From the IMG/VR virus record IMGVR_UViG_3300049914_000028, positions 1-50,793 of that record: a stretch of 50,793 nt of DNA. One strand, written 5' to 3'. Positions 1,957 through 37,178 of the stretch are shown piece by piece. This DNA comes from a virus. The stretch's first letter is position 1. Each line of letters begins with the position of its first letter. The notes below the pieces were generated by a model. That model worked only from the letters and a program-made list of their open reading frames with translations. It was not told the origin of the DNA and did no database searches. Both the position numbers and the translations under genes were made by a program.

Positions 1957-2040
1957 AGCGGTTAATTTCAGAACCTGATTTCAGGAGCTTTGAAGCCCGT
2001 GTTGAGAGTCAAGAGACTTTCGCACGGGCTTTTTGTTTTA
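1957..2040 (+). terminator. Conserved double-hairpin element, copy A (terminator-like)
   Basis: The element starts with AGCGGTTA, then a small hairpin CCTGA-TT-TCAGG, an 8-base linker, and a long hairpin AGCCCGTG...CACGGGCT (1994-2001 with 2023-2030) whose loop holds an inner stem AGTC-AAGA-GACT. It ends in TTTTTGTTTT. Two more copies at 32841 and 35975 keep the architecture while stem bases change in pairs. It lies directly after the giant virion gene and before the fibre genes, so it probably ends or processes the late transcript. Confidence 0.8.
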
Positions 2041-10488: not shown

Positions 10489-11457
10489 TCATGCCGCCTT
10501 CGCCTCGCCCGCTGCCCATTTACAAAGTTCATCATAGTCTGATCGCAGAATGTCGGCGGTATGTTCAATTCCCATCTTCCCTAAGTGCGCCTTGATTTCC
10601 TCGGCGGAAAATTCAGTCCCCCGCGCAATCGCCCAAAGTCGTTTTTTCTGAGCTTCGGAAATTTTCATTTTGTCTATCGGAGGGGGAGCCTTTTCAACCG
10701 TTTCGGTCTTTTCAGCATCCGTTGAAATGGGGGGTTCGGGTGAAACATCCTCGATGGTGGTTTCAACAATCGGCGGTTCGTTCTTCTTTAACAGGTGCGG
10801 GGGCAAATCCTCAACGTCCTGGGTGAATAAATCCGACGCCGCCGTACATGTCAACGTAGCGTCAACGTGCGCCCTTTTCTTCGCCATCTTCAGGATGGTA
10901 TTGTAATAATCAGCGGGATCTTCGTATTCCGTTTTCCCCGCAGCTTGGTTCGTAATGGATGGATCATCCGATTTGAATTTCTCTCCGCATCCCCCCTTCT
11001 TCTTGAAGCAAATGAATCCCCCTCCGTATTCCGCCTTCCCGGTTATAATCGCCTCTTTCCCGCACTTCGGGCAAATCCTTTCGGCCTTGCGGTATCGGTA
11101 TTTACTTTCCATTGTGGAGGCGGAACCCACTCCCTGACCGAAGATAGCGCCGGTGGGGATATGGGTAAGGGTACAGGTCAACCGATACTCCCGGTGTCCG
11201 TTAGATAGACTCTTTTCCGTGATGTCATAGGACGGGGCAAGGCGGAACGTGGTGGAGAGCTTTTCTGCTCCGGGTTTCAGTAGGGTTGGTTTGTCGCCGC
11301 ATCCGGGGATTTTCCCGTAGTGCTCCCCCTCGCGCATGACGGATTTCATTACGTCCTGGATGAGTTCAACCTGTTTGACGATTCTCTCGGGGGTCATGGC
11401 GTAATCTTCGTAATTTATGACTGCCCTGTTCTCAATAACCGCTACCGCGTTTTCCAT
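10489..11457 (-). CDS. Conserved zinc-ribbon phage protein, probable recombination/ssDNA-associated
   Basis: The protein has 322 residues. The core phrase GEHYGKIPGCGDKPTLLKPG followed by AEKL and a YRLTCTLTHIPTG strand region is a pattern I recognise in many phages and prophages, usually beside a PD-(D/E)XK exonuclease, as here (13285). A four-Cys zinc ribbon (CPKCG...CFKKKGGC) lies at about residues 129-165. A Pro/Glu-rich linker (about 220-265) leads to a C-terminal helical module resembling small DNA-binding or RuvC-associated helices. The start has GGAGGC upstream. The gene pairing suggests phage recombination or replication, but no activity can be read directly from the sequence. Confidence 0.75.
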   Translation of the reverse strand: MENAVAVIENRAVINYEDYAMTPERIVKQVELIQDVMKSVMREGEHYGKIPGCGDKPTLLKPGAEKLSTTFRLAPSYDITEKSLSNGHREYRLTCTLTHIPTGAIFGQGVGSASTMESKYRYRKAERICPKCGKEAIITGKAEYGGGFICFKKKGGCGEKFKSDDPSITNQAAGKTEYEDPADYYNTILKMAKKRAHVDATLTCTAASDLFTQDVEDLPPHLLKKNEPPIVETTIEDVSPEPPISTDAEKTETVEKAPPPIDKMKISEAQKKRLWAIARGTEFSAEEIKAHLGKMGIEHTADILRSDYDELCKWAAGEAKAA

Positions 11458-11473
11458 TCTTTATGCCTCCTTT

Positions 11474-12091
11474 TTAAATTCCGTCAGATTCAACTAACGG
11501 TATTTCCTGTATTATTTTCTTTTTTCTTCCGCCTCTTGCGCCGTAATATCTGGCTGAATAACAGGTCAAAATCTTCATAATATCTTCGGCCAATTCTTCT
11601 TCATATTTCTTTTCTTTTGTTTCGATTATTTCCACAGTCACTTCAAGGTTTGTAAAAATAGCATCAAGATATTCATAACCGAAACGGGCAAGCCGATCTT
11701 TGTATTCAATTAAAACCCTTTCAACCTTACCTTCAAAGCACATTTTGATTAATTTATGGATTCCAGCCCGTTTTTCATTTATCCCACTGGCTATTTCATC
11801 AATCAAAGCGTATTTATACCCCTTACTTTCCGCATATTTACGAAGTCTATCCTTTTGCCGTTCAAGATTTTCTTTCTGTTTTGCAGTGGAGCATCTGGCA
11901 TAAATCATTGTTAGTTTTTCTTGTTTAACCTTTTCAACGCCCATATAGGAATCTAAATCCTCTTGACGGAAACGCCTATGCTTTCCAGTCGTGCTAAATG
12001 ATTTGATTTTGCCGTTATTCGCAAGTGTTTTTAGTGAGTTAATCGAAACACCAATATATGCACTTGCTTCTGTAATTTTGTAGATTTTCAT
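11474..12091 (-). CDS. IS607-type serine recombinase (TnpA-like), orphan
   Basis: The 205-residue protein has the full IS607 TnpA layout. An N-terminal MerR-like helix-turn-helix (YKITEASAYIGVSINSLKTL, with the GKHRRFRQEDL wing) is followed by a small serine resolvase domain beginning MIYARCSTAKQKENLERQ. The catalytic Ser lies in ARCS and the motif RLARFGYE is intact. Length is normal. The usual partner tnpB is absent on either side, and no element ends were recognised. The ATG overlaps the stop of the methyltransferase gene (ATGA), so it is expressed as part of that operon. It may be domesticated, for example as a site-specific recombinase, or a stranded transposase. Confidence 0.9.
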   Translation of the reverse strand: MKIYKITEASAYIGVSINSLKTLANNGKIKSFSTTGKHRRFRQEDLDSYMGVEKVKQEKLTMIYARCSTAKQKENLERQKDRLRKYAESKGYKYALIDEIASGINEKRAGIHKLIKMCFEGKVERVLIEYKDRLARFGYEYLDAIFTNLEVTVEIIETKEKKYEEELAEDIMKILTCYSARYYGARGGRKKKIIQEIPLVESDGI

Positions 12092-16181: not shown

Positions 16182-16850
16182 TTATTTTATCAATCCAATC
16201 TCTTTCAAATCCTTCTCACCGACGACCTTGCAACGATGGACGCGAAACTTTCCATCCGTTGCTATCGGGATCGCCGCTATATCTTTAGCGGTAAACTCAA
16301 CGATCAGAATCCGATATCCTTCCCGCCATTCCTTCATGCACCAATCAAGCGTTGAAATGTTTATACCAGCGGCGCATTGTTGCGTGTCGTCCGTGTTGGC
16401 ATTGTCCACGCTGGCAATTTTACCCTTTTCGTATTTCACCCCGCCGTTGTATGGCCCCTCCATGTCGTAATTTACGAGTTTATAGGCGCGGATTTTACCG
16501 GGTTGATCCATGAGGATAAGTAACGGCGTACAGCGATTTTTATTGATGCTGTCCGCCCTGGAGAGGTCCGCCCCGGAGAGGTCCGCCCCGGAGAGGTTCG
16601 CCCTGGAGAGGTTCGCCCTGGAGAGGTTCGCCCTGGAGAGGTTCGCCCCGGAGAGGTTCGCCCCGGAGAGGTTCGCCCCGGAGAGGTTCGCCCCGGAGAG
16701 GTTCGCCCTGGAGAGGTCCGCCCCGGAGAGGTTCGCCCTGGAGAGGTTCGCCCCGGCTTTCCATGCCGCCTCAACGCATAACTTCATTGATTCCGTTTCC
16801 AGCGAGAAAATTACCCGTCCATTGAATCTGTTTTTAATCTCAAATTTCAT
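16182..16850 (-). CDS. Pentapeptide-repeat protein
   Basis: The protein has 222 residues from [15 protein letters not shown]; the longer frame is discarded because it overlaps the upstream gene out of frame. Residues about 36-105 are some fourteen A(N/D)LS(R/G) pentapeptides, which fold as a right-handed quadrilateral beta helix. A C-terminal domain (from about residue 110) with [14 protein letters not shown] and [16 protein letters not shown] matches a domain often following such repeats in phage proteins. Some pentapeptide proteins mimic DNA and bind gyrase; this one's target is unknown. The repeats are nearly identical at DNA level (15-base units), so copy number may vary between isolates. 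Confidence 0.85.
16551..16755. repeat. 15-base tandem repeat array within pentapeptide gene
   Basis: About thirteen to fourteen 15-base units of the form GAGAGGTTCGCCC(C/T)G, on the + strand, encode the A-(N/D)-L-S-(R/G) repeat on the minus strand. Units differ mainly at two positions, indicating recent expansion or ongoing homogenisation. Confidence 0.9.
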
Positions 16851-16852
16851 GG

Positions 16853-17050
16853 TCACAGCCCCTTCTCCCGCGCTAATTCGTTCATCTTCCCAATGTATGC
16901 CCGGTTCCAACGGGCGAACCAGGCAGCCCTTGCCGCTTCGTTGCCGCCCGAAAAGCGGATCCGCTCCTTTTTGTTTGCGTATTTTTCGGCAAGAGGGATC
17001 AGCTTGTTCCGGGCATGTGCATAATCTTTGTCGATGTCGTCGTCTGTCAT
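16853..17050 (-). CDS. Small helical protein, unknown
   Basis: A 65-residue, strongly charged helical protein ([20 protein letters not shown]...) ending REKGL. Its ATG overlaps the stop of the preceding gene (ATGA), and its end is two bases before the pentapeptide gene start. No motif of known function. Confidence 0.65.
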
Positions 17051-17331
17051 GCGGCATCCTCATCTTTTTCTTTCCTTATTTTCCCCCGATAAGGCATAAA
17101 CGGGAAAAGGGAACACATTGGCGTCTCGCATGAAAATTTCCCATCGACGTAATATCCCATGCAATCACAACAATGACTTTTGATTGCTCCATCCCTTGTC
17201 AATGTATCTCCACAGAGGTATTTGAGCAGTTTTGTCTTGCCGGACGATGCAGGAGCCGTCTCAAGAGCATCAATTCTCTGGGATGCCAGTTTTTGGGGTA
17301 TAGGGGACTTAGAAACGGACCTTTTAACCAT
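17047..17331 (-). CDS. Cysteine-cluster phage protein
   Basis: The protein has 94 residues from [18 protein letters not shown], chosen for the AAAGGAGG upstream. The C-terminal half has [20 protein letters not shown] then SLFPFMPYR, a pattern seen in a family of short phage proteins where the Cys group is followed by C-P/S-L-(Y/F)-P-F. Probably zinc-binding, function unknown. It overlaps the next gene by ATGA. Confidence 0.7.
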
Positions 17332-28391: not shown

Positions 28392-28544
28392 ATGCCGGTA
28401 AGGATTAGGAAGGTTGGAGGAAAATATCAGGTTTCGACGCCGAATGGGACCAAATCGAAGGGGACCACATTGAAGAAGGCCAAGGCGCAGGAGAGGCTTT
28501 TGAATGCGGTAGATCATGGTTGGCGACCCCGGAAGAAGAAATAA
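28392..28544 (+). CDS. Small basic conserved phage protein
   Basis: A 50-residue basic protein MPVRIRKVGGKYQVSTPNG... with AGGGAGGGGG before the ATG. Such short Lys/Arg-rich proteins often sit next to terL in phages. Its stop overlaps the terL start (TAATG). Function unknown. Confidence 0.75.
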   Translation: MPVRIRKVGGKYQVSTPNGTKSKGTTLKKAKAQERLLNAVDHGWRPRKKK

Positions 28545-30100
28545 TGCCTGACCCGGTAGAGCAGTACGCGAAGTATTTGAATTTGATTTCGATCAAGATG
28601 CACCCGGTGGCACTTGAGTATATCAAGTCTGAGGCGCAGACGAGGGCGATAATTAAGGGGAATCAAGGTGGGGGGACGCTCTTTTCGGCCTACGATGCGA
28701 CGTTAAGGCTCCTTGGCATACATCCGATCCCGAGAAGGAATGTTTTGAATAAACCCCTGAGGTTTGTTTCCAAGTGCCTTCCGAAGAGTGACACGGATGA
28801 AGAGAACCAGCAGTACGTTGAGTTGAAGCGGCTTTTTCCTGCTGAGTTTATCAGACCACACGGAGACGTGACGGCGCGATGTTCGATTATGAAGGTACGC
28901 GATCCACGAGGCGGAGCTGACCGGAAGGTCGAATTCATGTCGTCCTCGCAGGAACTGGACGCATTTATGTCGGTTCAAAGATCGGCCTACTACCAGGACG
29001 AGGAGATTGAGAAGGTCAAATGGGATGAATCTCATGTCCGACTATTAAAGGAGGGTGGGGATTCGACGATTACCTTAACGCCGGTTCGGGGGATGGATTG
29101 GACGTTTGATTCGATCTGGAAGAAAGCGCGAAAGATACATCGGTCGGGGACGATCTGTCGGAAATTCGGGTTCCCGGCACTGGAAACGACCGATCAGAAG
29201 GCGGATATAGATGTTTTCTGCTGGGCCACGGATGACAATCCGGTGATGGACAAGGCGACGATTGACCGAATCTTTGCCGACATAGACGACCCGGACGAGC
29301 TGGCGATGCGGCGTTATGGGGTATTCCGGCAGGTTTCGGGGCGGATTTACAAGTCATTTGACGAGAAGATTCACAAACAACCGTTTGACAAGGTGTTTGA
29401 TGCCGCTCTTTTCAGGACGTACTGGAATTTCAGGGTGATAGATTTTCATACCAGCAAACCGTGGGATGTTTCGTTTGTCGTCGTGACGCCTCGGAACGAG
29501 TGGATAGTGTGGAATGAACTACACCAGACACATGACAACCGGACGACGCTTGAGTTGAGAGATGAACTAAAAGAGGAGTCTGTATGCGATGAAGATGAGG
29601 AGATGAACAGGGCCACATTGATTGATCCTCTTAGTAAACAAAAACAGGGCAATACCGGATTTTCCGTGTTTGACGACTTGGGGATGGGGGAAAACGGGTT
29701 GCGTCGGATGACTCCTGCGGATACAAAAAATTCTCCCAATGGTGGCCGGATGAATATCAAGATGAGGTTGAAAAATTCCCTGATTTGCGGGGTGCCGGGG
29801 AACAATCTCAACAAGACCGACCTTTCGGAAACGCGGTACGGCCCTTATCTGCCGACACTCTGGTTCTTAGATAATTGCCGGGGGCATATCGAGCATTTCA
29901 AGAGTTGGCGGTATGTGGATTGGAAGCAGGAACACGTGAAGGCGGTGCGGACGGTGAAACGGGAATCGGAGAAATACAGCGACTACTGCCGGAACCTTGA
30001 ATTTCTCGGGGCGCTCAACCCTGCTTTTTACGAGCGCAAACATGATTTTTACGAACCATCGAAACTGTTTCAAGGACGGAAAGCGGCGGGATGGAGATAG
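28544..30100 (+). CDS. Terminase large subunit (ATPase/nuclease)
   Basis: The protein has about 518 residues from MPDPVEQYAKY; the upstream TTG adds only 8. The ATPase domain has KGNQGGGTLFSAYD at the Walker A position, where the usual Lys before Thr is Gly, then SAYYQDEEI as Walker B, and TLTPVRGMDWTFDSIW downstream. The nuclease domain has VIDFHTSKPWDVSFV with the first Asp, a middle ATLIDPLSK with the second Asp, and late acidic residues. It translocates DNA into the capsid with TerS and the portal. The circular genome fits headful packaging, but this is not shown. Confidence 0.93.
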   Translation: MPDPVEQYAKYLNLISIKMHPVALEYIKSEAQTRAIIKGNQGGGTLFSAYDATLRLLGIHPIPRRNVLNKPLRFVSKCLPKSDTDEENQQYVELKRLFPAEFIRPHGDVTARCSIMKVRDPRGGADRKVEFMSSSQELDAFMSVQRSAYYQDEEIEKVKWDESHVRLLKEGGDSTITLTPVRGMDWTFDSIWKKARKIHRSGTICRKFGFPALETTDQKADIDVFCWATDDNPVMDKATIDRIFADIDDPDELAMRRYGVFRQVSGRIYKSFDEKIHKQPFDKVFDAALFRTYWNFRVIDFHTSKPWDVSFVVVTPRNEWIVWNELHQTHDNRTTLELRDELKEESVCDEDEEMNRATLIDPLSKQKQGNTGFSVFDDLGMGENGLRRMTPADTKNSPNGGRMNIKMRLKNSLICGVPGNNLNKTDLSETRYGPYLPTLWFLDNCRGHIEHFKSWRYVDWKQEHVKAVRTVKRESEKYSDYCRNLEFLGALNPAFYERKHDFYEPSKLFQGRKAAGWR

Positions 30101-30103
30101 GTA

Positions 30104-32098
30104 ATGGCTAAATCCAAAAAAAATAAAGAAGTAAAATCCGATTGGAATGTTTCGGAAGAGATCCAACAGGCCCTTCTTTCCCATGTGAGTGAAGAACTGA
30201 AGGTTGCAGAACAGAACAGCGAAAAGGCCATTCAGGATTTCAATGCCTATTACGACATGCTGCATGGCGTCCGGGAGGCGAAAACTAACGACTGGGAATC
30301 GGATATCTTCCTTCCTGAATTTGAATCCCGGCTTCTGACACAGGTTGGAAACTTCGTGGCGCAGTATTTTGGCAGTACGGATTACGTTGACACGGCAATG
30401 GAGTCCGAGGATCCCAAAGACGTGGCCGAAGCCAAGGCGTCAAAGAAACTCCTCAACAAACTCCTAAACGACAAGGAGGCTTATTATTATTACAAGATTG
30501 TTCGCAACATCATGTATGTATTCACCTGCGGCCAAGGGATCATAAAGGGTGGGTATAATCAGCGAATCGCCAGCGAATTGTCGCACTATAATCAGGAATC
30601 GGAATATATCACGGACCCGTTAACGGGCGATTACCTTGCTGAAGATGGACAACCCTATACTGATCCCACAATCCAGAAACCCGCCTTCCAAACGGTACAG
30701 AAACCCATGATGATGGATAAGGTTCAGATCGACAAACCCGTTTTTGATGTTTACCCGATCACGAACGTCCATACGTCCCCGGAGTATTGTTACAGTCTGA
30801 ACGACAAGGAATACGTCATTTTTGAGACGGAAAAGACCCTCGACGCCTTAAAGATAGAAGCGGATGAGATGGGATACTTTAATCTCAATTTTCTGGAGGA
30901 GGAAGAACCGGAAGGGCAACGTGGGGAGAAGACCTACGACAAAGATGCGGAATTGGTCCAGCAACCGCGCCCACCCCTGAAAACCTTTGTGGTCATGGAA
31001 CGATGGGGGAAATATCCTGTTGTCGAAAAGGACGGGAAGTTCATTCCCGGATTTGACCCGGACGGCAGTTTTTCTAAAGATGCGGCAAACGAGGAGTGCA
31101 TTGTCCACTATGTCAAACAACGGGAAAAAGACGAACCGGAACGGATCATTGGATTCCGAAAATCAAAGCATTCAAAACGGCCGATGGTCCGATTCCTCTG
31201 CTATGTGGACATGATTAAAGATTGCGGGTTTGGGGATGGGGAGGTCAACCGGGAACTTCAGAAGGCGATTAACGACAATTATAATTTGATGAATTACCGG
31301 ACCAAACTGGCGATCACCCCGGCATTCAAGGGTAAGAGATTCGCCGTTGACGAGAATGTCAAGATCACCCCCGAAAAGGTTATCCTACTTGAAGATCCCG
31401 AGAACGATCTAAAGGAAATCATCATTCAGGACAACATCCAGGGTGGCATCGTACACCAGAACCTTCTTTCGTCCCGGATGGATTATTGCATGGCGACCGC
31501 GCCACAGACGATGGGGGCGTCTCCTGAACGTGCGGAAACCGCAACGATGGCCTCCATCGTCAACCAGAGGGCCAATGTCCGAATCGGTATGAAGTCCATG
31601 AACCTTGAGTTCATCGGATTTACGGAATTTTACGACATGCTTCTGACCCTCTGCAATGACTTCATGCTCCCGGAGACCCTTGAAGAATTGATCGGCAAGG
31701 AAGATGCTGCGGCCTACAACCCAAAACGGAAAGATAAATTCCGGCCTGTTTCGCAAGCCCTTGAAACAGAAGAGAGTAAACAATTCAAGATAAAGTCATG
31801 GCAGGGCATATTGCAGATGGTTGGCGGGATGCAAAACCCAAAGACTCCGATGGTAGTCAATTACATAATCGGTCAAGTGCTTGAACTGATGGGCGGTGGC
31901 TTCAAGACGTTCAAGAAATATATGTTTGAAGAAGATCCGACTACGATGGTTTTGTATCAGTTAGCGACAGGGGGGAAGGGGCAAGGATCGGCTCCGGCGG
32001 GACCACCTCCGGGAATGCCCCCGCAAAACCAGCAAGGGAATCCACAGAGACCGCCGGAACAACAGACGAGGGCGCAAGCCCCGCAACAGGCCGCATAG
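30104..32098 (+). CDS. Portal protein
   Basis: The protein has 664 residues, the size of podovirus/P22-type portals. The N-terminal charged helix is followed by WESDIFLPEFESRLLTQVGN and TDYVDTAMESEDP, conserved in such portals. The core has YYYYKIVRNIMYVFTCGQGI, YPITNVHTSPEY and a long helical C-terminal crown, ending in a low-complexity Pro/Gln-rich tail (from about residue 615). It follows terL by three bases and is followed by small head genes. It makes the dodecameric ring for DNA passage. Confidence 0.9.
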   Translation: MAKSKKNKEVKSDWNVSEEIQQALLSHVSEELKVAEQNSEKAIQDFNAYYDMLHGVREAKTNDWESDIFLPEFESRLLTQVGNFVAQYFGSTDYVDTAMESEDPKDVAEAKASKKLLNKLLNDKEAYYYYKIVRNIMYVFTCGQGIIKGGYNQRIASELSHYNQESEYITDPLTGDYLAEDGQPYTDPTIQKPAFQTVQKPMMMDKVQIDKPVFDVYPITNVHTSPEYCYSLNDKEYVIFETEKTLDALKIEADEMGYFNLNFLEEEEPEGQRGEKTYDKDAELVQQPRPPLKTFVVMERWGKYPVVEKDGKFIPGFDPDGSFSKDAANEECIVHYVKQREKDEPERIIGFRKSKHSKRPMVRFLCYVDMIKDCGFGDGEVNRELQKAINDNYNLMNYRTKLAITPAFKGKRFAVDENVKITPEKVILLEDPENDLKEIIIQDNIQGGIVHQNLLSSRMDYCMATAPQTMGASPERAETATMASIVNQRANVRIGMKSMNLEFIGFTEFYDMLLTLCNDFMLPETLEELIGKEDAAAYNPKRKDKFRPVSQALETEESKQFKIKSWQGILQMVGGMQNPKTPMVVNYIIGQVLELMGGGFKTFKKYMFEEDPTTMVLYQLATGGKGQGSAPAGPPPGMPPQNQQGNPQRPPEQQTRAQAPQQAA

Positions 32099-32107
32099 GA
32101 GTAATGA

Positions 32108-32434
32108 ATGAAGGAATGGACGAATCAAGACCTGATCGAGTACGTCAGCAAGTTCAAGGATGTTCAGAGAGAGTACGTCCTGAAACAGATCCTTGAAAAT
32201 GATTTGCTGGCGAAGTTTTTGGGGACGACTGAGGGACGACTGATTTTGGGTAATGTCGTCGATGCGATCACTTCAGATACAATGTTGATGGTCCGATTGT
32301 GCGTTGAGGGGGATAAAAAGGGGGAAATATCCCAGGCTGCTCTCAGGATAAGCACCGCCTACAATTTCATGTATTCTATTGCGAAGATGGCCGGAGACGG
32401 TCAGGAACACGTGGAGAAGATGAAAAAGAAATGA
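32108..32434 (+). CDS. Small head-region protein, unknown
   Basis: A 108-residue helical protein (MKEWTNQDLIEYVSKFKDVQ...) ending in Lys residues. It follows the portal gene with AGGAGTA before ATG and overlaps the next gene by ATGA. The hydrophobic central helix (LMVRLCVEGDKKGEIS..ALR) is not a clear membrane span. Unknown role in capsid assembly. Confidence 0.7.
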   Translation: MKEWTNQDLIEYVSKFKDVQREYVLKQILENDLLAKFLGTTEGRLILGNVVDAITSDTMLMVRLCVEGDKKGEISQAALRISTAYNFMYSIAKMAGDGQEHVEKMKKK

Positions 32435-32610
32435 CGGCATACAAGCAGACCTTTGAAGAGGCGATAAAACAATGGGGATTCAAGAAGGTGCTTGCAGAAC
32501 TCCTCAATGTTGCCAAGTTGACGGATGAAAAGACGGTTGGACAGTTCACCGCAAACCTTAACAGCGGAGGGGTGACAGACGCATTTATAAATAAGAAGAT
32601 TCAGCAGTAG
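32431..32610 (+). CDS. 59-residue small protein in head region
   Basis: MTAYKQTFEEAIKQWGFKKV...; coupled to the preceding gene by ATGA. It is helical and probably soluble. Too small to assign; a minor head or packaging accessory protein is plausible. Confidence 0.65.
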   Translation: MTAYKQTFEEAIKQWGFKKVLAELLNVAKLTDEKTVGQFTANLNSGGVTDAFINKKIQQ

Positions 32611-32662
32611 CGACGGTTGTTTCAAAACCAATAATGGAACTTTGAAATTCGGGAGGTGAAAA

Positions 32663-32830
32663 ATGGAGTGGTTAAGAAAAAGGATTGTGGCTTGGTTGAG
32701 GGTTCCGACAGAAGTAGATATGTATTACATTCAGAATTGCATGTTCTACCGCGAATCGCCGGAAGATAAACCATATCTTAAAAAAGTTGGAACTGTGGTG
32801 AAGGAACATATAAGTAAAAAGAAAAAATAA
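32663..32830 (+). CDS. 55-residue basic protein
   Basis: Starts MEWLRKRIVAWLRVPTEVDM with GGGAGG upstream; ends in Lys-rich VVKEHISKKKK. A membrane-binding amphipathic N-terminal helix is possible. It precedes the double-hairpin element and the scaffold gene. Unknown function. Confidence 0.6.
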   Translation: MEWLRKRIVAWLRVPTEVDMYYIQNCMFYRESPEDKPYLKKVGTVVKEHISKKKK

Positions 32831-32840
32831 CATAGAAAAA

Positions 32841-32919
32841 AGCGGTTAGTCTAAAACCCGCAAGGGAACTTTGGAACCCGTGTCGAAAGAGCAATCTTTC
32901 TTCACGGGTTTTTGTTTTT
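32841..32919 (+). terminator. Conserved double-hairpin element, copy B (upstream of scaffold)
   Basis: AGCGGTTAG, hairpin CCC-GCAA-GGG, an 8-base linker, then AACCCGTG...CACGGGTT with inner stem AAAGA-GCAA-TCTTT and TTTTTGTTTTT. Relative to copies A and C, both stems change in matched pairs (AACCCGTG/CACGGGTT here against AGCCCGTG/CACGGGCT). It sits about 26 bases before the scaffold ATG and 11 bases after the previous stop. Confidence 0.85.
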
Positions 32920-32944
32920 GGACAACTTAACAGGAGGATTTGAC

Positions 32945-33745
32945 ATGGCAGAGATCGACACTCCTACACCCCCCGCGCCTGCGGGACAGGCACCGGAGCC
33001 GACACCAGAACCAGAAGTACAAACGCAATCAGGATGGATCGAGGAGCCGACCCCGGAACCGGAGCCAGTTCCCGAACCCGTGCCGGAACCAACCCCGCAA
33101 CCGCAACTAACCCCGGACCAGATCATAGAGCAGTCGTCCGAACGAGCCTTTCAGAAAATAGCATCGTGGCAGGGACGGAGAGACAAAGACCTCTTCGACA
33201 ACCTCGGGAATCTGATCGACAGTCGGATGAGGACGCAGATCCCTCCTCCGCAACCTCCCTCGACTGACCCCGCCACGATGCTTGAAAATCCAGACGGATG
33301 GGCAAGAACGGTAGTGCCCCGGATTCTCGACGAAGAAATTTCCCGACGGTCAAAAGCCGATCAGAATTTCAATACCGAACTGATCCGCGAGGCGGCGACC
33401 ATAATGGATGGCGACCCTTTGTTCAAGGACAAAAACCTTGGGGATGCGGTGGTTGCGGAGATTCAGCAGAATTTCAACAATGTCAACCGTCAACTCCATC
33501 CGTCGGTTGCCGCGCAACTTCTCGTGCAGGGAGGTCTGGCGAATGTAGTTCGCAGAGTCGCGGCGACGAAAACAAACGCCTTTGCCGATCACAAACCCGT
33601 TGCGGGACCGATGGGGACCGTGACCCCGCCGCCTCCAAAACCAGCCAAAGCCAAGCCGGTGAAACTTTCCGAATCCGCAGCGGCATTAGCTAAACGGTGG
33701 AATTACAGCGCGGAAGATATAGCAAAGGTATTTGGGGAACAATAA
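32945..33745 (+). CDS. Probable scaffolding protein
   Basis: The protein has 266 residues from MAEIDTPTPPAPAG; AGGAGG lies 7 bases upstream. The N-terminal 55 residues are a Pro/Glu-rich disordered tract (TPEPEPVPEPVPEPTPQP). The centre is helical and acidic (ERAFQKIASWQGRRDKDLFD), and the C-terminus is basic with a helix (ESAAALAKRWNYSAEDI), typical of phage scaffold proteins. The order scaffold, two small genes, capsid is classic. A head protease is not seen. Confidence 0.8.
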   Translation: MAEIDTPTPPAPAGQAPEPTPEPEVQTQSGWIEEPTPEPEPVPEPVPEPTPQPQLTPDQIIEQSSERAFQKIASWQGRRDKDLFDNLGNLIDSRMRTQIPPPQPPSTDPATMLENPDGWARTVVPRILDEEISRRSKADQNFNTELIREAATIMDGDPLFKDKNLGDAVVAEIQQNFNNVNRQLHPSVAAQLLVQGGLANVVRRVAATKTNAFADHKPVAGPMGTVTPPPPKPAKAKPVKLSESAAALAKRWNYSAEDIAKVFGEQ

Positions 33746-35023: not shown

Positions 35024-35947
35024 ATGAGTAACCCATTAACCGACAAACAATTCGTGCGGCTCCTGGACGATAGACTTACCAAAGTCTTTGTCAACCAGTA
35101 CAAGGGTCTCCCATCCATCAAGGAGAAGTTTTATTCAATCAAGAAATCCAAGAAGGCGTCGGAGGAATATTTCAGCGTCGGGTCCGTGCCTGATCCTGAA
35201 GCGTTTAACGGGATCATCCAGTATCAGGGCGTTGCTCCCGGATACCATACCAAGATCACCCCGGCGGAATACGCGGGCGGCATCACGATCCAGAGAAGGC
35301 TTCTGGATACGGATCGTTATGACGTGATCGAAGGTCTGGCAAAGGGACTCGGAACCGCTGCAAGACGGAAACAGAATAAGATCGCCCATGAAGTTTTCAC
35401 GAACTTCGATTCTACGGCGTTCGACTTCGTTGTTTCCGAGGAAGGCGTTGCCCTGTGTTCCAATTCCCATCTGACCAAGGCCCCGAATGTCTCTACCGCT
35501 TCCGGTTTTGACAACCTTTCCACTCTTGGTTTTGATGCGGTTAACCTCGAAGCACTTCGGATTCAGGGTCTTGGATTCCGGGATGACATCGGAGAACGGA
35601 TCGAAACGAACTTCGATACCATCGTCCACGGAACCAACCTCGAAGCCGATGTGTGGACGGTACTGAACTCTCAGGGCGCCACCGGCGACAATCTCAACGA
35701 CGCCAATTTCCAGAAAGGCCGTTGGAAGGCGATCTGCCTTCCCCTACTCGATGACTACGATACGAACGATTGGTTCATCGTGGATTCTTCGGCCATGAAA
35801 GATGCTCTGATCTGGATCGACAGCATTCCGTTGGAGTTTGGTTCCACGACCGACTTCGACACTATGGTAAGAAAATACAGTTCTTACATGGTTTGTGGTT
35901 GGGGATTTGTTGATTGGCGCTGGATTGTAGGGTCGAGCGTGAGTTAG
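35024..35947 (+). CDS. Major capsid protein, Mu gpT-like (HK97 fold)
   Basis: The protein has 307 residues. The segments DDRLTKVFVNQYKG, EEYFSVGSVPDPEAFNG and ERIETNFDTIVHGTNL resemble the Mu gpT-type major head subunit family. The later region has DANFQKGRWKAICLPLLDDY and WFIVDSSAMKDAL, and it ends with YMVCGWGFVDWRWIVGSSVS, the conserved aromatic close of this family. No N-terminal delta domain precedes it, and the scaffold is a separate gene. Length is normal for the family. The 3' side is closed by the third double-hairpin element. Confidence 0.88.
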   Translation: MSNPLTDKQFVRLLDDRLTKVFVNQYKGLPSIKEKFYSIKKSKKASEEYFSVGSVPDPEAFNGIIQYQGVAPGYHTKITPAEYAGGITIQRRLLDTDRYDVIEGLAKGLGTAARRKQNKIAHEVFTNFDSTAFDFVVSEEGVALCSNSHLTKAPNVSTASGFDNLSTLGFDAVNLEALRIQGLGFRDDIGERIETNFDTIVHGTNLEADVWTVLNSQGATGDNLNDANFQKGRWKAICLPLLDDYDTNDWFIVDSSAMKDALIWIDSIPLEFGSTTDFDTMVRKYSSYMVCGWGFVDWRWIVGSSVS

Positions 35948-35974: not shown

Positions 35975-36050
35975 AGCGGTTAGTTTGTAACCCTTAGGGG
36001 ATCTACGAAGCCCGTGTTGAGTCGAAAGACTTGGCACGGGCTTTTTTGTT
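35975..36050 (+). terminator. Conserved double-hairpin element, copy C (downstream of capsid gene)
   Basis: AGCGGTTAG, small hairpin CCC-TTA-GGG, 8-base linker ATCTACGA, then AGCCCGTG...CACGGGCT with inner stem AGTC-GAAA-GACT (a GNRA loop) and TTTTTTGTTT. It is nearly identical to copy A in the large stem. It directly follows the capsid gene, so it may end or stabilise the capsid mRNA. Confidence 0.85.
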
Positions 36051-36093
36051 TGTCCCTCCCTGAGTGACGCGGGTCGCTCTTAACCTGTCCTCC

Positions 36094-36125
36094 CCTCTTC
36101 GTTATCGGGATGAAGGGGGGAGGAT
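36094..36125 (+). promoter_or_regulatory. Long GC-rich hairpin in leader of 36180 gene
   Basis: TCCTCCCCTCTTC pairs with GAAGGGGGGAGGA around a ten-base loop, with no T-tract after it. It lies between the double-hairpin element and the 36180 gene; the remaining leader shows no gene. It may protect the 5' end or control translation. Confidence 0.65.
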
Positions 36126-36179
36126 CTTAACCCTCTCAATGCTTGTCCGATTCGGGTGTGAGAGAAAAGGAGAATTAAA

Positions 36180-37178
36180 ATGAGTGTAACAAGAGAAATG
36201 AGGGCGCAGGTTGCCAACATTGTTGGCCCCGGCTATGGCGAGATTTATTGCCTTGTTGCAGATCGGGATGATGCCTATGGCAAACTGCTTCGGAAGAGGG
36301 GTGTTACGTTAGGTTCGATTTTCACCACTTTGGCAGAGGCGGAAGATAAGATGGTGACGGATCAGAACGATACCCTTCTTGTATTTCCGGGGAATCATGC
36401 GGTTACGGCTTCGATTCTGTGGGACAAGGATGCCACAAACATCATCGGTGTCGGTAGTCCCAATCAGGGGTATCAGCCATCGACCCTAACCAATGGTGGT
36501 GTTAGGATTAAGTGTGACACTGCCACGGTTGCGGAAATCCTTGACATAACTGGCAACTACGTTTCGATTTACGGTATCGGCACACAGAACACGGCAAACG
36601 ACTCGACGAATGTTTGCGATCTTCGGATCAGAGGCAAGAACACCTACCTGAAACTTTGCGCCCTTCGTGGTGGAACGGGTGCTGCACAGGTCGCGGCTGA
36701 GGGGTCAGGTCTGCCAATCTACGTTGACCAGGATCAAAATGCCGGTGCCGGTAATGCGTTGTGGGTTGATACGTGTCAGTTGGGAAGTTCCGGTAATACT
36801 GCCCGGACGGTTGGAACCAGTTGCTTGATGTCACATTCGGCTTCGGGTGCCTATGCGGGTGGTTTTGGTATGCACTTCACCGATTGCGTATTTTCAATGA
36901 TAAGTTCTACCGCCGGTGTTTTCTGTGTAAACTTCCCACATCCGTTCTCGATTGATCGGGATGCGTATTTCAAAAGATGTCTGTTTTACTGCTATGGCAC
37001 TGCCGCAGCCGTAGATTACGTGTTCAATACCGGATCGAACAACACGGATGTTGTTCTTGATAGTTGCGTCTATCACAATTTCGATTATTGGGCTGCTGCG
37101 GGATCGCATGTTTATGTTGCTTGTGGCCCGGCAAACATCGGTCCTGGTGGTAAATCGGTTGTGTGTGCCAACTCATAG
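36180..37178 (+). CDS. Beta-helix/pectin-lyase-like virion protein
   Basis: The protein has 332 residues. Repeated strand phrases typical of right-handed beta helices, such as GNYVSIYGIGTQNT, LRIRGKNTYLKLCALRGG and FTDCVFSMISSTAGVFCVNF, run from about residue 90 to the end. The N-terminal 70 residues are helical (an attachment region). GGAG lies upstream of ATG. Position next to the capsid gene suggests a head-fibre or decoration protein rather than a tailspike. No catalytic triad was seen. Confidence 0.7.
   Translation: MSVTREMRAQVANIVGPGYGEIYCLVADRDDAYGKLLRKRGVTLGSIFTTLAEAEDKMVTDQNDTLLVFPGNHAVTASILWDKDATNIIGVGSPNQGYQPSTLTNGGVRIKCDTATVAEILDITGNYVSIYGIGTQNTANDSTNVCDLRIRGKNTYLKLCALRGGTGAAQVAAEGSGLPIYVDQDQNAGAGNALWVDTCQLGSSGNTARTVGTSCLMSHSASGAYAGGFGMHFTDCVFSMISSTAGVFCVNFPHPFSIDRDAYFKRCLFYCYGTAAAVDYVFNTGSNNTDVVLDSCVYHNFDYWAAAGSHVYVACGPANIGPGGKSVVCANS

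Follow-up and report, generated by a model that had tools for sequence, protein, structure and literature searches.

The RAT antiterminators of the BglG/LicT/SacY systems consist of a stem that is broken by asymmetric internal loops and is mutually exclusive with a terminator, and the leaders of the ANTAR (AmiR/NasR) type comprise two hairpins, the second of which is exclusive with the terminator (PMC3369936). In phages, the put RNAs of HK022, about 70 nt long and made up of two stem-loops, act on transcription (PMC9378689).

The stretch of DNA analysed here (the window) corresponds to IMG/VR virus record IMGVR_UViG_3300049914_000028 (50,793 bases), from an uncultured phage. It carries several copies of an RNA element with two asymmetric interruptions (4x2 or 4x1, and 1x3) in its antiterminator-type stem. 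Like the RAT, that stem is exclusive with the terminator, but the element lies between late phage genes, whereas the RAT is found in the leader of sugar operons; the CAT_RBD domain (PF03123) was absent from the seven phage records tested. The element differs from the ANTAR leaders in that its hairpin consists of a single irregular stem and a GNRA-type loop, and no match to the ANTAR domain was obtained above the cut-off in the phage records. By its architecture it may work like the RAT or ANTAR leaders, and membership in either class is not claimed. With the put RNAs it has in common that it is a phage RNA of two stem-loops, but put belongs to early operons and acts at distant terminators, whereas the element contains its own. 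Ordinary phage intrinsic terminators share with it a GC-rich hairpin followed by a T-tract, co-directional with the late genes; what sets the element apart is a conserved 5' domain, which covaries and pairs with the arm of the terminator, together with repeated duplication and half copies that lack the terminator. The preliminary description of the locus had recognised no described class, and a search with all 4227 families of Rfam 15 agreed: no hit was obtained at the gathering threshold on the window and eight related loci, and matches at E up to 5 were at chance level only. The window gave no tRNA hits.

Results

Copies of the element in the window

Three full copies had been reported, at 1957, 32841 and 35975, sharing AGCGGTTA, a small hairpin, a linker of about 8 nt and a long T-tailed hairpin, and all these features were recovered at those places on the + strand (Table 1). 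The AGCGGTTA motif alone was not above chance (34 matches with at most 1 mismatch versus 29.6 expected); the composite pattern AGCGGTTANTNTNNAACC matched exactly the 3 full-copy places, and a reversed control pattern gave 0 matches. Each of the full copies folded better than 200 out of 200 dinucleotide shuffles (z -4.7, -3.8 and -5.1). A covariance model of the 5' domain only (R2) revealed a fourth site, a half element retaining the 1x3 internal loop, an 8-bp P_mid and a P1 of CCA/UGG (helices are described below).

Copy 1 starts 7 nt past the stop codon of a 649-aa ORF (1-1950), copy 2 sits between a small ORF and a scaffold-like gene, and copy 3 begins 28 nt downstream of the point where the major capsid gene stops. 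The half element lies 2 nt past the stop of the gene that we call SP and abuts the Shine-Dalgarno of the small ORF. In the terminator half, copies 1 and 3 share 88% identity, against 69% for copy 2 and its orthologue in the related record L007, which suggests that copying has taken place within the genome.

Table 1 Coordinates of the RNA elements, their helices and the late genes around them
Feature	Position	Strand	Basis and remarks
Copy 1, full element	1957..2035	+	CM 79.7 bits; nascent folds; P_mid UUCAGA/UUUGAA; P1 CCUG/CAGG; terminator stem starts at 1992
Terminase-like gene	28520-30100		Distant tblastn similarity to annotated terminases
Portal-like gene	30104-32098		Position and conservation in relatives
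SP gene	32431..32610	+	59-aa protein ending ..VGQFTANLNSGGVTDAFINKKIQQ
Half element, 5' domain without terminator	32612..32651	+	R2 21.0 bits, E 0.003 (records searched); fold
Small ORF between half element and copy 2	32663..32830	+	55 aa
Copy 2, full element	32841..32914	+	CM R1 80.8 bits, R2 59.2 bits; nascent folds; pair counts
Copy 2, P_out	32842-32845 with 32878-32881		5' strand GCGG; 3' strand CCGU
Copy 2, P_mid	32850-32855 with 32870-32875		UCUAAA with UUUGGA
Copy 2, P1	32857-32866		CCC-GCAA-GGG
Copy 2, terminator stem	32874-32911		Followed by T-tract
Scaffold-like capsid gene downstream of copy 2	32945..33745	+	Position and weak similarity to L007
Major capsid protein gene upstream of copy 3	35024..35947	+	Mu gpT-like; PHROG 371; Pfam Phage_capsid_4
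Copy 3, full element	35975..36048	+	CM 84.2 bits; P_mid UUUGUA/UACGAA; terminator stem 36007-36044

Two further loci of the window, both on the - strand, were recorded. A gene at 16182-17063 encodes a pentapeptide-repeat protein, with 15-nt tandem repeats at 16506-16801 and a C-terminal part resembling RIIB lysis inhibitor profiles, and the region 10489-12091, with a serine-recombinase/transposase-like gene (PHROG 6620) adjoining a phrog_10048 gene, has the look of a phage-borne insertion sequence.

An alternative helix shares an arm of the terminator

Folding of nascent prefixes gave the same picture in each copy: the 5' loop pairs with the supposed 8-base linker, forming a helix (P_mid), and within the P_mid hairpin (hp1) a 1x3 internal loop (A opposite ANC) lies beneath P1, CCC-GNRA-GGG. 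This irregular hairpin is enclosed, across a 4x2 or 4x1 junction, by P_out, in which NCGG pairs with CCGN of the terminator 5' arm. Since P_out shares the CCG of that arm, it and the terminator are mutually exclusive.

The three helices were returned unprompted by RNAalifold on an alignment (A6) of 11 sequences, several of them closely related. On these sequences, from which the structure itself was derived, P_out, P_mid and P1 together left 90.7% of the cells paired versus 79% in shuffles (0-1 of 500 shuffles were as good), with double changes in 7 of the 13 pairs, while slid versions of the structure reached only 17-56%. P_mid alone showed double changes at 5 of its 6 pairs. P_out alone was 100% paired, with 7 out of 500 shuffles as good (permutation p about 0.006), its support coming mainly through the outermost pair, which takes five pair types. 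Moreover, the base following CCCG pairs with the terminator 3' arm in four Watson-Crick types (U-A, G-C, C-G and A-U) and the matching P_out base tracks it (G.U, U.G, G-C and U-A), a three-way covariation that is expected of exclusive folds. Energy by itself is a weak argument for P_out: judged one copy at a time against dinucleotide shuffles (each about 0.1-0.25), there is nothing remarkable in how the exposed CCCG arm pairs with the 5' end, and shuffled 5' domains also tend to capture that arm.

The predicted order along the prefixes was hp1, then P_out (peak probability about 0.9-1.0), then the terminator in 10 out of 10 full copies, and the terminator prevailed in every full-length fold. 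As in intrinsic terminators, the stems of all full copies (about 9-18 bp) end in T-tracts; as in attenuators, a covarying alternative helix uses the terminator 5' arm, a feature resting on one strongly varying pair. Among the relatives, L060, L063 and L066 have two or three mismatches within P_mid, and the diverged L008 and L027 retain a 9-bp P_mid of other sequence, the 1x3 loop and P1, with a very weak P_out of only 2-3 bp.

The compensating stem changes pointed out in the preliminary description were correct and extend to relatives (CCCGGAA/TTCCGGG in L007 versus CCCGTG/CACGGG in copy 2), and its view that there is more here than an ordinary terminator is borne out by a covarying 5' domain kept in other phages. 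Its proposal of two competing folds held as regards the competition, given that P_out versus the terminator covaries, but not as regards the competitor that it named: the GGTT:AACC pairing is possible in nearly all copies, yet it never varies, shows zero covariation and has no support beyond sequence.

Homologues in other virus records

Scans of IMG/VR with capsid and terminase proteins yielded 40 related stretches, and pattern scans with the element detected full homologues in six further records (L060-L063, L065 and L066, two of them near-identical), each with a terminator, which was absent from the search pattern. Full-strength homologues are those of L007, L060-L063, L065 and L066. Their terminator stems differ yet stay self-complementary. 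The preliminary description had named a yield of isolated terminators, lacking the conserved 5' part, as evidence against its reading; the homologues found here do keep that part.

The capsid protein of L007 is 86% identical to that of the window, and its element, found at the copy-2 junction, has a terminator stem that has been rebuilt as CCCGGAA/TTCCGGG. At the copy-3 junction L007 has no element, the capsid stop codon running directly into the next leader, so copy 3 was either gained in the lineage of the window or lost from L007. In L060-L063 and L066 the 5' domain is 78-87% identical to that of copy 2, and tblastn of the late proteins of the window against these five records gave zero matches. 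The 5' domain is thus conserved across two phage groups whose capsid proteins have no detectable similarity.

Ten chance matches in total were rejected, on reading or by model score: L004-L006, from the first strict pattern scan, fell within coding sequence, and L068 and L099-L104, which matched the pattern and had no terminator of the right kind, were used as negative controls (R2, run on L099-L104, gave no score). No match was found with R2 in 395 Desulfobacterota genomes, which is uninformative as a test, or by blastn of the element against 50,697 phage genomes, and the element is absent from Pan3, CBW1004C-Prop1 and Mwe-JY13, whose terminases resemble those of the L061 group. The closest genome hits of the window capsid protein were Desulfobacterales and Syntrophales MAG contigs. 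The relatives that carry the element are few and all uncultured.

Late-gene context

The gene that follows the element is scaffold-like in the window, L007 and L065, and is terS in L060-L063 and L066, where, on contigs of sufficient length, P22-like terL, portal and capsid genes come after it. From the T-tract to the start codon there are about 20-30 nt at both the scaffold junction (about 30 nt after copy 2) and the terS junction (L060 group). No sigma70-like site was found in the two T-tract-to-start regions scanned, nor a consensus promoter site before the element of L075. Such a gap being too short for a separate promoter, the capsid genes must, to judge from the sequence, be transcribed through the terminator.

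Other structured RNAs were seen nearby. Between copy 3 and the gene at 36180, a leader RNA (36088-36172) forms two hairpins with complementary loops (AUCGGG/UCCGAU), a kissing-loop arrangement also found in L007 (3705-3790), L008 (10935-11015), L013 (9869-9966), L018 (10925-11025, where the loops covary to AUAGGG with UCCUAU) and L043 (6714-6816). It sits directly before the Shine-Dalgarno of the gene following the capsid gene and has no match in Rfam. With 98.3% of cells paired, double changes in 15 of 29 pairs and 0 of 500 shuffles reaching that level, it appears to be no less strong than the attenuator-like element itself. At the junction of that element, L011 (1-156) and L022 (4776-4930) have what may be an elaborated form of it, a longer chain of hairpins ahead of the terminator (GGCUUAGAAGCC, CCCCUUCC..GGAAGGGG, CCUC..GAGG), and the related phage L037 (2866-2935) has a terminator with a three-way junction, its stem containing two extra hairpins.

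The SP gene and the half elements

SP homologues are encoded directly ahead of the element in L007, L065, L060-L063 and L066, and in 8 out of 8 records the SP gene (about 45-65 aa) ends 1-11 nt before the first element. The proteins have a conserved motif near the end, GQ..N.GGvT, and the SP of one phage group is homologous to that of the other (34% over 41 residues; E 4e-7, calculated for this one comparison). No family match was found in Pfam, PHROG or NCBIfam, and an assignment to DUF2292/YezD was discarded, as the HMM PF10055 matched nothing in nine records at E values up to 10. The predicted fold, two helices and a beta hairpin (pLDDT 80, pTM 0.50), had no match in the PDB better than E 0.76, and a scan of IMG/VR with the SP alignment returned already-known records only. 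From its position, SP is a candidate trans partner of the RNA element.

L065 also has a half element (179-216; R2 45.8 bits), in the same layout as that of the window. Each half element directly precedes the Shine-Dalgarno of a small ORF, the two ORFs being unrelated. The hp1 fold is preserved in both, one of its pairs having changed in a compensating way (C-G in the window, U-A in L065). The phages themselves are distant: the proteins encoded upstream of their capsid genes are 41% identical. This conservation of hp1 in distant, terminator-less copies argues that it may do something besides termination. Unrelated small ORFs fill the same slot between half and full element (L065 179-600; window 32431-32945), as if the element marked an insertion site for small cassette genes.

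Discussion

With the same element and the same small gene present in phages with unrelated capsids, this looks like an undescribed, exchangeable RNA switch. We lean towards considering it an intercistronic transcription attenuator of the late operon with a RAT-like antiterminator, conditional or partial in its action. In the emerging RNA, the 5' domain would fold first into the irregular hairpin (P_mid, the 1x3 loop and the GNRA-capped P1), and P_out would then close it, seizing the CCG that the intrinsic terminator downstream carries in its 5' arm. Unaided, the terminator (about -22 to -32 kcal/mol) would displace P_out and stop a fraction of the polymerases, and whatever held the P_out/hp1 fold long enough would let the polymerase pass on to the capsid genes. 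We infer this order of folding from the modelled prefixes, and likewise a termination that is partial or conditional and the existence of a trans factor.

In thermodynamic terms the terminator far outweighs P_out, and with no factor to assist it the element might be simply a terminator. A constitutive partial terminator, whose fixed efficiency would set gene dosage in the late operon while the 5' hairpins only tune folding kinetics and no factor takes part, agrees with the outcome of the full-length folds, always won by the terminator, and with the finding of a strong terminator at the corresponding junction in the majority of the relatives examined, including those with a diverged 5' domain. 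We nevertheless think it rather unlikely, as one would not expect a passive spacer to retain CGGUUAG, the 1x3 loop and the P_mid pairing across groups whose capsid proteins are dissimilar, and the 5' domain persists in two half elements that have no terminator. Those half elements (window 32612 and L065 179), with hp1 kept directly before the Shine-Dalgarno of unrelated small ORFs, would suit a protein-binding operator, where a phage protein, SP or another, binds hp1 to control translation or RNA stability and the terminator has been added at some sites; in each of the eight strong-element records, the first element comes directly after the SP gene. SP, however, matches no family and no fold, and most copies carry a terminator whose arm covaries with P_out, which makes an operator of this kind quite improbable to us. 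Finally, a ribosome ending the upstream gene could cover the P_out 5' strand and so choose between P_out and the terminator, the first element of the module having a stop codon 1-11 nt upstream, that is, within the ribosome footprint. The distance from stop codon to element nevertheless varies from 1 to about 47 nt (28 for copy 3, 24 for L065b, about 47 for L075), and we give translation coupling very little credence.

An extension of the attenuator reading would have SP and the RNA form an exchangeable module, in which SP binds hp1/P_out behind its own gene, with terminator readthrough and, before a Shine-Dalgarno, translation as outputs, and which times the capsid genes in phages with unrelated capsids; as a whole we regard this as speculative and unlikely.

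Phages need many capsid subunits and few portal and packaging proteins from one late operon. To our knowledge, little is known of how such protein ratios are set in phages other than the models. An attenuator conserved ahead of scaffold or terminase genes, with a duplicate behind the capsid gene, would, if true, be a concrete and testable ratio-setting device, and the element and its neighbouring SP gene, common to phages with unrelated capsid proteins, may constitute a new RNA-protein pair.
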